Of a DNA stretch of 16,108 bases, positions 691-5,256 are shown piece after piece. This stretch comes from Nitrospinota bacterium (GTDB lineage: Bacteria > Tectomicrobia > Entotheonellia > J063). The stretch covers positions 1 through 16,108 of the forward strand of contig RFHZ01000137.1 in the NCBI GenBank assembly GCA_003696125.1, read 5' to 3'. The position numbers and the translations under genes are program-made. How positions within the stretch are numbered: position 1 is the first letter of the stretch; every line of letters starts with the position of its first letter. Under the pieces are notes generated by a model that was not told the DNA's origin, ran no database searches, and saw nothing but the letters and a program-made list of their open reading frames with translations.

Positions 691-888
691 ATGTCGAAGA
701 GGTGTGCTATCTGCGGCAAAGGTCCCCGTTTTGGGCATCGCATCAGCCATGCGCATAATCTGACCAATCGTCGCTGGAATCCCAACCTGCAAAAAGTCCG
801 GATTCTGCTCAATGGCAAAAGGCGTCATGTCCGCGTCTGTACCCGCTGTCTCCGCTCCGGCAAGGTGGAAAAAGCCCCCATCCCCTAG
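691..888 (+). CDS. rpmB: 50S ribosomal protein L28
   Basis: A small basic protein of the large ribosomal subunit, 65 residues. It starts MSKRCAICGKGPRFGH and carries the L28 hallmarks SHAHNLTNRRWNPNLQ and VCTRCLRSGKV. Four cysteines (two CxxC pairs, CAIC and CTRC) are retained, which marks the zinc-ribbon (C+) form of L28. The length matches the family. AGGAGG at 678-683 sits 7 bases before the ATG. It has its own strong promoter, is transcribed alone, and converges on rel with only 6 bases between the stop codons. Confidence 0.96.
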   Translation: MSKRCAICGKGPRFGHRISHAHNLTNRRWNPNLQKVRILLNGKRRHVRVCTRCLRSGKVEKAPIP

Positions 889-909
889 GGGAACTCAGGC
901 ATGGCTTTT
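870..909. terminator. possible bidirectional terminator between rpmB and rel
   Basis: AAAAGCC (870-876) and GGCTTTT (903-909) are inverted repeats flanking the two stop codons. They would give an A-rich upstream arm and a U-rich downstream arm on either strand. The 26-base loop contains a CCCCTAGGGG palindrome. The long loop makes this weak, but the position between convergent genes is what a shared terminator would occupy. Confidence 0.35.
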
Positions 910-3096
910 GGCCGCATGGGTTCCCTTCACCCGCTCAACCTTGAGCACGTCCTTGATCTGACGAATATTACGGATCACCTGCTGCAGTTGATTGAGATCG
1001 GTGATGTCGATGATGAAGTCGATGAAGGCCCGCTTGTCTTCCGTGGTGGTGAGGTTGCCCTGGCTGATATTCACCCCGCAGTCGGCAATGGCAGAGGTGA
1101 TCTTGGCGAGAAGGCCGGGTCGGTCAATGGTCACCACTGAGATCCAGACCGGATGCGGACTGACCCGTTCCACATCCCACTCCACCTGGATCAGGCGTCC
1201 CGGATCGTAGGCCTGGATCTGCGGACAATCCGCAGTGTGAATGGAGACCCCCCGTCCCCGGGTAATGAAGCCGACGATCTCGTCCCCGGGCACCGGGTGA
1301 CAACACTTGGCATAGCGGATGAGCATCTCATCGATCCCCTTGACTTTCACCCCGCTATCCGCCGGCTTCTCTCCTATCTGCTGGGCCAGCTTAAGGAACT
1401 TCTCCTCTTCACTCTCCTCTGCGCTACTCTCCTTTTTCTGCCGCTCTTCCAGGAGGTCTTTGGGCAGGAGATAGGAGATGACCTGATGGGCCGAGACCTT
1501 ACCATAGCCGATACCGGCCAGCAGATCGGCCATGGCATTGAAGCCAAAGCGCCTGGCCACCTGGTCCAGATCGTTCTCCTTCATATAGTTTGCCGGTGCC
1601 ACCCCGTACTTCTGGATCTCCTTCTCCAGGATATCCCGTCCCAGATTGAAACTCTCCTCTTTCTGCTTGGCCTTGATCCAGGCCTTGATCTTGGTGCGGG
1701 CCCGTGAGGTCTTGACAATGCGGAGCCAATCGGTACTCGGGGTATGGTTGGGGTTGGTCAGGATCTCCACGATATCGCCATTGCGGAGTTGATACTTCAG
1801 GGGCACGATCCGGCCATTTACTTTAGCGCCGACACACTGATGACCGACATCGGTATGAATCTGGTAGGCAAAATCGATGGGAGTCGATCCCCGGGGGAGG
1901 GAGCGCACCTCCCCTTTGGGCGTAAAGACATAGACTTCATCCGGGAAGAGATCGATCCGGACCGCTTCCATGAAGTCTTTGGGATCGGTGAGATCCTGCT
2001 GCCAGTCGAGTAGGCGTCGCAGCCAGTTCAGCCGCTCTGTATACTTCTCGTCTCCTACTCCTCCCCCTTCCTTGTATCGCCAGTGCGCTGCGATCCCCTC
2101 CTCTGCCGTTTTATGCATCTCCTCGGTCCGGATCTGAAACTCCACCCGCATGCCATGTGGTCCGATCACAGTGGTATGCAGGGACTGGTACATGTTCATC
2201 TTGGGCAGGGCGATATAGTCTTTGAACCGACCAGGGATCGGGGTCCAGAGGGAGTGAATGAGGCCGAGGACCGCATAGCAGTTACGGATGCTGTCGGTGA
2301 TGATGCGCAGGGCGATGATATCGTACACCTCCTCAAAGCCGATGTTCCGGTTTTGCATCTTCCGGTAGATGCTGTAGAAGTGTTTCGGCCTCCCTCCTAC
2401 TCTGCCTGGAATATGGGCCTTCTCTAGTTCCTTTTCGATGATGGCCTTGACCTCCTCGATGTACCGTTCCTGCTCTTCCCGCTCACTGGCAACTTTGTCC
2501 GCGATATCCTTATACGCCTCCGGGTCGAGGAAGCGAAAGGCGATATCTTCCAGCTCACTCTTGAGCCAGCCGATACCCAAACGATGGGCCAGCGGTGCGT
2601 AGATATCGAGCGTTTCCTGCGCGATCTTCTGCTGTTTGGCCGGGGGAAGATGGTGGAGGGTACGCATGTTGTGCAGGCGATCGGCCAGCTTGATCAGGAT
2701 GACTCGGATATCCTTGGCCATGGCCAGCAGGATCTTGCGGAAATTCTCCGCCTGCCGCTCTTCTTTACTCGCATAGCGTACACGACCGATCTTGGTCACG
2801 CCATCGACCAGGGAAGCCACCTCATGGCCAAACTCCCTCTCCACCTCCTCTAGCGTTGCTGCGGTGTCCTCGACCGTATCGTGGAGCAGGGCTGCCGCAA
2901 TGGTGGCAGAATCCATGCGGAGGGTGACCAGAATCTCGGCGACTTCTAAGGGGTGAGAAACGTAGGGATCTCCCGACTTCCGGTACTGTCCTGTGTGGGC
3001 TTTGGCCGCAAAGTCATACGCCTTGCGAATCAGGGTTTCATCGGTATGGGGATTATAGCTGAGAATCCTTTGAATAAGCCTGTCAACCGGGTCCAT
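895..3096 (-). CDS. rel: bifunctional (p)ppGpp synthetase/hydrolase, RelA/SpoT family
   Basis: Makes and degrades the stringent-response alarmone (p)ppGpp; cytoplasmic, regulated by the ribosome. From the ATG at 3096 it has 733 residues, the usual size of long RSH proteins. Domains in order: HD hydrolase with HP (residues 48-49) and HDTVED (72-77); synthetase with GRPKHFYSIYRKM and RFKD (290-293); TGS (about 384-447, DEVYVFTPKGE); a conserved CCHPVPGD zinc-finger-like segment; and a C-terminal ACT domain (VTIDRPGLLAKIT). RFKD rather than EXDD, with an intact HD motif, points to both activities. The open frame extends upstream to GTG codons at 3156 and 3153, but homologues begin near MDPVDRLI, and AGGAAAGAG lies before this ATG. 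It is divergent from rpoD, with a long leader. Confidence 0.93.
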   Translation of the reverse strand: MDPVDRLIQRILSYNPHTDETLIRKAYDFAAKAHTGQYRKSGDPYVSHPLEVAEILVTLRMDSATIAAALLHDTVEDTAATLEEVEREFGHEVASLVDGVTKIGRVRYASKEERQAENFRKILLAMAKDIRVILIKLADRLHNMRTLHHLPPAKQQKIAQETLDIYAPLAHRLGIGWLKSELEDIAFRFLDPEAYKDIADKVASEREEQERYIEEVKAIIEKELEKAHIPGRVGGRPKHFYSIYRKMQNRNIGFEEVYDIIALRIITDSIRNCYAVLGLIHSLWTPIPGRFKDYIALPKMNMYQSLHTTVIGPHGMRVEFQIRTEEMHKTAEEGIAAHWRYKEGGGVGDEKYTERLNWLRRLLDWQQDLTDPKDFMEAVRIDLFPDEVYVFTPKGEVRSLPRGSTPIDFAYQIHTDVGHQCVGAKVNGRIVPLKYQLRNGDIVEILTNPNHTPSTDWLRIVKTSRARTKIKAWIKAKQKEESFNLGRDILEKEIQKYGVAPANYMKENDLDQVARRFGFNAMADLLAGIGYGKVSAHQVISYLLPKDLLEERQKKESSAEESEEEKFLKLAQQIGEKPADSGVKVKGIDEMLIRYAKCCHPVPGDEIVGFITRGRGVSIHTADCPQIQAYDPGRLIQVEWDVERVSPHPVWISVVTIDRPGLLAKITSAIADCGVNISQGNLTTTEDKRAFIDFIIDITDLNQLQQVIRNIRQIKDVLKVERVKGTHAAKSHA

Positions 3097-3145
3097 GGTC
3101 TGCTCTTTCCTAACAAAGGGGCCTCTCTCTCCCCTGAGAATAACA

Positions 3146-3163
3146 TTATTCACCACCAGCCAT
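3146..3163 (-). other. possible 5-residue upstream ORF (MAGGE) in the rel leader
   Basis: In the leftward leader of rel, an ATG (3163-3161) follows AGGAGG (3180-3175) by 11 bases and encodes MAGGE and a stop, ending about 50 bases before the rel ATG. This is the best Shine-Dalgarno sequence in the leader, better than the one in front of rel itself. It could be a regulatory short ORF, or the ribosome site could serve the in-frame GTG at 3156, although that spacing (18 bases) is long. Confidence 0.25.
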
Positions 3164-3368
3164 CAACGCTCTCCCCTCCTTTCTTACCACCCGCCCACCA
3201 CCTCTCCGTTGAAGGCTGAAGGCCATCCCCTTATCTCTTGAGAAAAGCCTCGGTACGAGAAGGACAAGACCCTCCTTTCTCTGTGCATGGGCTGTTTTGC
3301 TCAGATCTACGGTCGAGCCTGGAAGCAAGACACGTAGAGCAGACCGTTTTCCATTTTGGGTATTTTTT

Positions 3369-3397
3369 AGTGTAACAAAGCTGGAAACAATGTGCAA
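3369..3397 (-). promoter_or_regulatory. possible promoter for rel
   Basis: On the minus strand TTGCAC (3397-3392), a 17-base spacer and TACACT (3374-3369), preceded by TG to give an extended -10. Both hexamers are imperfect. The predicted transcript would start near 3362 and have a leader of about 265 bases before the rel ATG. Confidence 0.4.
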
Positions 3398-3485
3398 GCG
3401 CAAAACAAAGAAAGAGGGCTCCTTACCTCCTCTCCCGGGCCGTCCCGACCGGCCTGGACGGGGCACAAAAATTTTCATCCTTCCA

Positions 3486-3514
3486 TTGACAAATTGATTT
3501 TTATCTGGTATAAT
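3486..3514 (+). promoter_or_regulatory. consensus sigma-70 promoter with extended -10
   Basis: TTGACA (3486-3491), exactly 17 bases, TATAAT (3509-3514), with TG at 3506-3507. Both hexamers are perfect and the extended -10 is present, so this is the strongest promoter in the window. The predicted start is near G3521. It faces rpoD but is separated from it by an intrinsic terminator (3614-3645). A 6-bp inverted repeat CCGTCC/GGACGG (3440-3445 / 3456-3461) lies upstream of the -35. Confidence 0.85.
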
Positions 3515-3520
3515 TTCTCT

Positions 3521-3645
3521 GCTTAGTTGCGTACTGATAGGAATCAAGGCGATTTTTCCGAAAGGAGCGTAAAGGAGCGGGGTATTCGCATAGAGAGGAA
3601 AACCTTCTTGGGGAAGCCCTTTCAGGTGCGGAAGGGCTTTTTCTT
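3521..3645 (+). ncRNA. candidate small RNA or attenuated leader upstream of rpoD
   Basis: This stretch runs from the predicted start of a consensus promoter to the U-run of an intrinsic terminator, about 125 nt in all. It has no convincing ORF. A short GAAA-loop hairpin (TCC-GAAA-GGA, near 3557-3566) can be seen, followed by a purine-rich segment with repeated GGAGCG. I do not recognise it as tmRNA, SRP RNA, 6S RNA, a T-box or a common riboswitch. It could be a free-standing small RNA, a leader whose terminator is read through or controlled to set rpoD expression, or both. The boundaries are predicted from sequence only. Confidence 0.5.
3614..3645 (+). terminator. intrinsic terminator ending the candidate small RNA
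   Basis: Inverted repeat AAGCCCTT (3614-3621) and AAGGGCTT (3632-3639), an 8-bp stem with a 10-base loop. The stem runs into a T-rich tail (TTTTT at 3638-3642, then CTT). It lies about 95 bases before the rpoD start. Confidence 0.75.
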
Positions 3646-3659
3646 ATGCCCGTGTACGG

Positions 3660-3668
3660 TGGTATAAA
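3660..3668 (+). promoter_or_regulatory. possible second, extended -10 promoter for rpoD
   Basis: TGGTATAAA (3660-3668) has an extended -10 TG and five of six -10 bases, but no good -35 at 16-18 bases upstream. It lies after the first terminator. A transcript from it would start near 3675, directly before the 3676-3700 hairpin, and carry rpoD independently of the upstream promoter. Confidence 0.45.
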
Positions 3669-3675
3669 CACTGAT

Positions 3676-3706
3676 GCCCGAGGAATGCTTCTCCTCGGGC
3701 TCTTTG
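3676..3706 (+). terminator. second terminator-like hairpin in the rpoD leader
   Basis: GCCCGAGGA (3676-3684) and TCCTCGGGC (3692-3700) form a perfect 9-bp stem with a 7-base loop, followed by TCTTTG. The tail has few T residues, so it may be an attenuator, a 5' stabilising hairpin on the rpoD mRNA, or a weak terminator. It ends 24 bases before the rpoD Shine-Dalgarno sequence. Confidence 0.5.
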
Positions 3707-3738
3707 CCATTCGCTGATTCAGCAAGGAGATAAGGCTG

Positions 3739-5256
3739 TTGGGAAACATGAAGAAGTATCAAATTTTAGGCGAAGAGGACTTTTTGTCTCCTGAGGGAAC
3801 AGAAGAGGAAACCGTGAATATGGCTGCCGATCCCGTACTGTCCAGTGAACTCGGTTCAGATCCGATGGAAACAGAGGTTTCCCCCGTCATAAACGATATC
3901 GACGAGATGACAGAGCTAGGGGGTGAAGAGACGGTAGCCGATCTGGAGCAGACCGATGAGGTGTCTGACGCAGATCTGGCGGATCTGGTGGAAAACCCGG
4001 TGCGTGTCTACCTCTATCAGATCGGGAAGGTCCCTCTCCTTTCTCCCGCCGAAGAGGTGGAGATCTTCAAGCGCATCGAAGCGGGAGAGGCAGCGGTAGA
4101 AGAGGCGCTCCTCCATTCCCCTCTCACGGTAGAAGAGGTGTTGAACCGCGCAGAGAAGATCCGCCAGGGCAAACGGGAACTCTCCTCCCTGGTGCAGAGA
4201 GAGAAAAAGGGAGAGGCGCAGGATAGTGCGGCGACCTTTCAGATGTTAGCACAACTGGCTGAACTCGCCGAACAGAGTCGTACCCTGCGAAAGCAGCTCA
4301 CCCAGCTTCCTCCCACCACGGAATCTTCTGCAGCCCTGCAGAGCGAACTCCAGGGCCGGCGGGAAGAGATGGCCACGCTGCTTCGGGCCTTGAACCTGAA
4401 AAAGAGCTTCCTCAACCAGGTGAAGAAGAAGCACAAGCGCTATGCCGGCAGAGACCTGGAAGGGGAATATCCCCTGCTCGCCGCCGAACTCCGGGAGGCC
4501 ATCGCAGCCATCGAGCGGGGAGAACAACGGATCAAAATGGCCAAGGAAGAGATGATCACAGCCAATCTGAAGCTGGTGGTCAACATGGCCAAAAAGTACA
4601 TCGGCAGCGGCCTCCCCTTGCTCGATCTCATCCAGGAAGGCAATATGGGCCTGATCCGGGCCGTAGATAAGTTTGATTATAAGCGGGGATATAAATTCAG
4701 TACCTATGCGGTATGGTGGATCTGGCAGGCGATCAGCCGGGCTGTGGCCGACCAGGGGCGTACCGTGCGTATCCCTATCCACATGACCGAAATGCTCTCC
4801 AAGATCCAGAAAGCCTCACGCACCCTGTATCAACAGCTCGGACGAAAGCCGACTCCCCAGGAAATCGGCCAGGCCATCAACCTGCCCGCGGAAAAAGTGC
4901 AGGAAGCGCTTCAGGTCGGGAAAAAGACGGTTCACCTCGACAAGCCGATCGGTGAAGGGGAAAGCACCATCGGGGATTTCATCAAAAACGAGCATGCCCC
5001 TTCCCCCTTTGAAGAGCTACTGATGAAGGATTTAGAACATCAAACCGATCGGGTACTGGGCACCTTAACCGAAAAAGAGGCCAAGGTGCTTCGCCTGCGC
5101 TTCGGCATCGGTGAAACGCGAAACTATACCCTGAAAGAGATCGGAGAGATGTTCGAGGTCAGCCGAGAGCGGATTCGCCAGATCGAAGGGAATGCCCTGC
5201 GCAAGCTGCGGCATCCCCAACGGCGTAAAGACCTGGAAGATTTCCTCGTCGATTAG
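3739..5256 (+). CDS. rpoD: primary RNA polymerase sigma factor RpoD/SigA
   Basis: Housekeeping sigma-70 factor, 505 residues. Residues 1-85 are acidic and carry no clear region 1.1. Region 1.2 is at about 86-115 ([18 protein letters not shown]). A shortened non-conserved region fills about 115-270. Regions 2.1-2.4 span about 272-346 ([37 protein letters not shown]). Region 3 follows, then region 4 with [10 protein letters not shown] at the C-terminus. AAGGAGAT (3724-3731) is at ideal distance from TTG 3739 but 18 bases from ATG 3748, so TTG is chosen. H348 and E351 match E. coli H455 and E458, which read the extended -10. Oddity: W329 stands where the family has Arg (E. coli R436). It is not next to dnaG here; rel is divergent upstream. 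The N-terminal start is the least certain point. Confidence 0.95.

Follow-up and report, generated by a model that had tools for sequence, protein, structure and literature searches.

A consensus promoter and an intrinsic terminator delimit a candidate leader RNA ahead of a group-2 sigma factor gene in a Nitrospinota bacterium

Among described systems, the closest to the locus analysed here is UpsM of Rhodobacter sphaeroides, a small RNA from the 5'-leader of the dcw cluster (PMC5089854). Both loci combine a strong promoter, a leader with an internal Rho-independent terminator, a short RNA and a gene downstream, and in both a short frame overlaps the terminator. UpsM measures 206 nt and precedes mraZ and the dcw cluster (PMC5089854), whereas the RNA reported here is ~125 nt long and precedes a sigma factor gene. 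The gene behind UpsM is reached by read-through in about 1 of 100 transcripts and no mraZ-exclusive promoter was seen (PMC5089854), while our sigma gene carries a candidate -10 element of its own. In addition, UpsM has been documented by Northern, RACE and reporter data and is conserved in its family (PMC5089854), whereas the present RNA is predicted from its sequence. The nearest case involving a sigma factor is the E. coli rpoS leader (567 nt), where premature termination in a long leader limits a secondary sigma factor; termination is Rho-dependent there and base-pairing sRNAs take part (PMC6582626), whereas the stop in our locus is an intrinsic terminator. 6S RNA (RF00013) is a small RNA that also has a conceptual link to sigma factors, but the RNA studied here lies outside this family: it gave no match to it, and the clear 6S RNA of the genome is found on contig C31 (99.5 bits). 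No tRNA or tmRNA was found either.

The window, that is, the whole stretch of 16,108 nt that was analysed, corresponds to contig C445. The assembly to which it belongs is of metagenome style and totals 4.18 Mb over 990 contigs, with ~95% completeness and 8% contamination. An earlier note on this DNA had claimed a TTGACA-17-TATAAT promoter with an extended TG and had called it the most perfect promoter of the window, and both statements were borne out. This sigma-70 promoter (3486-3514, + strand, predicted start G3521 at +7) has its -35 hexamer at 3486-3491, a spacer of 17 nt and its -10 hexamer at 3509-3514 with TGG ahead, and is the sole site in the window to match at 12/12 positions; not one such site arose in 200 dinucleotide shuffles. 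Genome-wide, perfect sites number 18, against 1 for a reversed control pattern, and the consensus is thus in real use in this genome. Most of the other perfect promoters with downstream sequence present run straight into ORFs or a tRNA. The only other clear case with terminators is the perfect promoter on C176, in the leader of a cysteine-synthase gene, which is a typical setting for attenuation.

Besides, an unrecognised terminated leader RNA was noticed in two copies, at L028:1240-1410 on the minus strand of C176 and at L069:1440-1600 on the minus strand of C505, with a mean column identity of 79% in a two-sequence alignment. The C176 copy is located ahead of the cysteine-synthase gene and behind the perfect promoter just mentioned, and the C505 copy ahead of a gene resembling trpD, after which comes a sirohydrochlorin-chelatase-like gene. 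For the segments GCGGGGGUU...ACCCCCGC two pairings are possible, one inside the leader and one with GGGGGUUUUUU of the terminator. Rfam searches returned no gathering-score match for the C176 copy (chance level at the relaxed threshold) and none for the C505 copy up to E 0.5, and a covariance model of the pair recovered from 290 genomes these two alone, plus one weak match (E 0.033). This RNA is a candidate sulfur-related attenuator or riboswitch.

Behind the window promoter lies an intrinsic terminator (3610-3645) with a stem of 9-14 bp, a 6-nt loop and the run TTTTTCTT on the + strand only. The earlier note had described an 8-bp stem with a T-run at 3614-3645; the terminator stands, while the core stem measures 9 bp (3615-3638) and is extendable to 14 bp over 3610-3643, with TTTTTCTT at 3638-3645. 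Read on the - strand, the hairpin has no T-run. Moreover, the + strand carries no other gene from 885 to 3739; the only one upstream is that of L28 (691-885), beyond the whole minus-strand rel gene. Because the terminator works in the + orientation only and no other + gene occurs in this interval, we conclude that it serves only the window promoter. The order on the + strand is promoter, intrinsic terminator and, 94 nt past the T-run, the sigma gene. A small RNA or an attenuated leader, as the earlier note had it, is the right pair of options, and the sequence reads naturally as a short terminated RNA. The explanation that we favour, to which we assign about even probability, is that the group-2 sigma gene has this unit as its 5' leader, attenuated or gated, and that a ~125-nt RNA is released from it.

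The predicted RNA (3521-3645, + strand) consists of a modest 5' stem (3521-3578) followed by the terminator. Compared with shuffled sequences, the full length folds with a z-score of -1.9, due mostly to the terminator, whereas 3579-3645 gives -2.1 and 3521-3606 is only slightly better than shuffles (z -1.4). In silico, in the nascent RNA that precedes synthesis of the terminator's 3' arm, GGGGU (3579-3583) pairs with GCCCU (3616-3620) with a probability of 0.86-0.99, and an alternative fold therefore exists, in which the 5' arm of the terminator is held. Shuffled leaders paired with the terminator arm just as well as the true one (481/1000), so that complementarity of this order is common by chance, and no dedicated antiterminator stands out. 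The covariance search against Rfam that had been proposed matched no family, with only chance-level hits at the gathering and relaxed thresholds.

The RNA contains a direct repeat, AAAGGAGCG followed by AAAGGAGCG (3561-3579, + strand), in which each unit is Shine-Dalgarno-like and carries GGA motifs. A CsrA-binding decoy of the CsrB/RsmZ type was considered, since the genome encodes CsrA (C575) and six GGA motifs fall within the 125 nt, two of them in the repeats. This number is near chance (3.1 expected, p about 0.055 by shuffling; ~5% of window segments equal it) and another two of the six belong to the terminator, so that a decoy role appears highly improbable. The claim that the unit contains no ORF holds insofar as no coding-like frame is present in the RNA, although a 46-codon frame (TTG3527-TAA3667) stays open through the terminator. 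That the frame spans the terminator would suit a short mRNA for a peptide of at most 46 codons, or a leader-peptide attenuator; its codon usage, however, is not coding-like (score -0.03, with only 0.4% of real coding segments so low) and no ribosome-binding site lies ahead of TTG3527, which makes this the least probable of the explanations considered.

Past the terminator, a second extended -10 element, TGGTATAAA, is found at 3660-3668 (+ strand) without a good -35 hexamer. It is a possible separate promoter, and the sigma gene may therefore have a start of its own besides read-through. This element is followed by a strong 9-bp hairpin, GCCCGAGGA-ATGCTTC-TCCTCGGGC (3676-3700, + strand; z -4.6 for 3670-3712), which lacks a T-run and would open, on the 5' side, any transcript initiated at the second promoter, and by the ribosome-binding site sequence AAGGAG (3724-3729, + strand). 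The codon usage of a 19-codon frame at 3674-3732 is not coding-like. Sequestration of the ribosome-binding site in the window leader was considered and dropped, since the folds disagree.

The earlier statement that the unit is complete without the downstream gene is strengthened by this second element, as everything from promoter to terminator is in place. A free-standing, trans-acting small RNA, with the sigma gene transcribed separately from 3660-3668, would account for this completeness, for the presence just past the terminator of a motif as rare as TGNTATAAW (4 in the window versus 0.24 expected) and for a hairpin opening the second transcript. Trans-acting sRNAs are usually conserved at family level or wider. 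For the present RNA, BLAST of the interval against its own genome, against 40 relatives and against the class returned the self-match only, and a single-sequence covariance model (R1), run on the five class genomes and on selected loci, recovered nothing besides the query except a chance match (E 3.6), albeit in a comparison with one genome of the family, the level at which such conservation would usually be seen. The part ahead of the terminator is, moreover, not strongly structured (3521-3606, z as above). We regard this main rival as a serious possibility, though a less likely one than the leader explanation.

The gene downstream (3739-5256, + strand; start TTG3739 or ATG3748; 502-505 aa) had been taken for rpoD, encoding the primary sigma factor, and this assignment is refuted. 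The protein contains sigma-70 regions 1.2, 2, 3 and 4 but lacks region 1.1, and it scores below the NCBIfam RpoD cut-offs (440 against 555 bits; 325 against 354 bits for the C-terminal domain). In contrast, a 609-aa protein encoded on C696 has region 1.1, passes both cut-offs (728 and 402 bits) and groups with RpoD-like proteins of three relatives, the one of which that was scored passes the same cut-offs. With region 1.1 missing, both scores too low and the true rpoD located on C696, the window protein is a secondary, group-2 sigma factor, RpoD-like but not primary. The frame upstream of the C696 gene reads like the end of dnaG. The nearest kin of the window protein is a paralog whose gene is divided between contigs C158 and C941 and adjoins one that looks like that of a Fur-family regulator. 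Named relatives of the window sigma gene are distant Dadabacteria only, and no match was found in the viral contigs searched. The assembly (G000) holds at least five RpoD-like sigma genes (C445, C158/C941, C696, C529 and C509), and some of these contigs could be contaminants, contamination being ~8%. To see a primary sigma factor next to the alarmone enzyme was thus a misreading, the gene being one of several RpoD-like paralogs.

The divergent neighbour of the unit is rel (895-3156, - strand; RelA/SpoT family, TIGR00691), in view of which the RNA had been suggested as a possible link between growth state and the supposed rpoD. We found no support for this idea: a sigma gene is absent beside rel in 4/4 class relatives, and the rel-sigma neighbourhood is thus not conserved. 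Promoters under stringent control are expected to have a G+C-rich discriminator; that of the window promoter, TTCTCT, is not of this type, and stringent control is unsupported for this reason. The only thing to suggest a (p)ppGpp link is the neighbouring gene. The convergent L28-rel pair (691-3156 in the window) is kept in 4/4 class relatives.

The class comparison comprised four other genomes, all from another family than the window genome, which is the sole member of its family in the set, and its reach is limited accordingly. In each of the four, a group-2 sigma gene is preceded by a TTGACA promoter with 11/12 matches and then by a leader of 238-351 nt. Across 22 class loci, which add up to 165.5 kb of strand, promoters this good are rare: there are five, and four of them are those at group-2 sigma genes. 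Two of these four come from one genus and are thus not fully independent, and the loci were partly picked for sigma genes. The genes resemble the window gene in kind but are probably not strict orthologs of it, and their leaders carry no clear terminator, except a weak one in G003. Conservation of the interval was looked for as well, and the window RNA was not found in the four relatives by BLAST or covariance model. The promoter-plus-leader layout recurs in the class, whereas the RNA sequence does not. In two of the relatives' leaders (L021 and L022, from G001 and G002), a hairpin GUAGC-AAUAA-GCUAC in one corresponds to GCAGC-GGCAA-GCUGC in the other species, so that the change is compensatory; the folds place the ribosome-binding site partly or largely inside a stem.

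An attenuated leader in the window is favoured by the orientation of the terminator, the position of the sigma gene behind it, the alternative fold of the nascent RNA, the C176 parallel and the strong promoters and long leaders at the relatives' group-2 sigma genes. Against it count the lack of a standout antiterminator, the failure to find the RNA in the relatives, the probable lack of strict orthology of their sigma genes and the mostly terminator-free leaders there; the second promoter, which could free the sigma gene from the window RNA, weakens it further. The locus could also be unregulated: a terminator of fixed, partial efficiency would damp the strong promoter, no signal would be involved and the RNA would have no function. 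This account would agree with the missing antiterminator and the missing sequence conservation, but each of the four relatives likewise has a long leader behind a strong promoter at a group-2 sigma gene, and we consider it improbable.

In the attenuated-leader explanation that we favour, a very strong housekeeping promoter would drive the leader, and the intrinsic terminator would stop transcription ~125 nt on, most transcripts presumably going no further and yielding a short leader RNA. Expression of the sigma gene would depend on the read-through fraction and, probably, on the weaker extended -10 promoter (3660-3668) as well. Less termination under some conditions may then permit a quick rise of the sigma factor from an already busy promoter. 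The arrangement is real and probably functional, but of an ordinary known type; its RNA matches no known family. More speculatively, a rule for this little-known class may be surmised, which we hold to be doubtful: secondary sigma factors would generally be placed under strong housekeeping promoters followed by long leader RNAs, with output set by control of termination or translation and not by promoter choice. The window RNA would then represent a novel attenuator of this kind, specific to the lineage, whose released form may also act in trans. We know of no experimental work on this lineage. If the favoured explanation is true, it would add one more sigma-factor gene under intrinsic termination in its leader, from a lineage with few genomes, and would suggest that secondary sigma factors in the class are usually controlled through their leaders.
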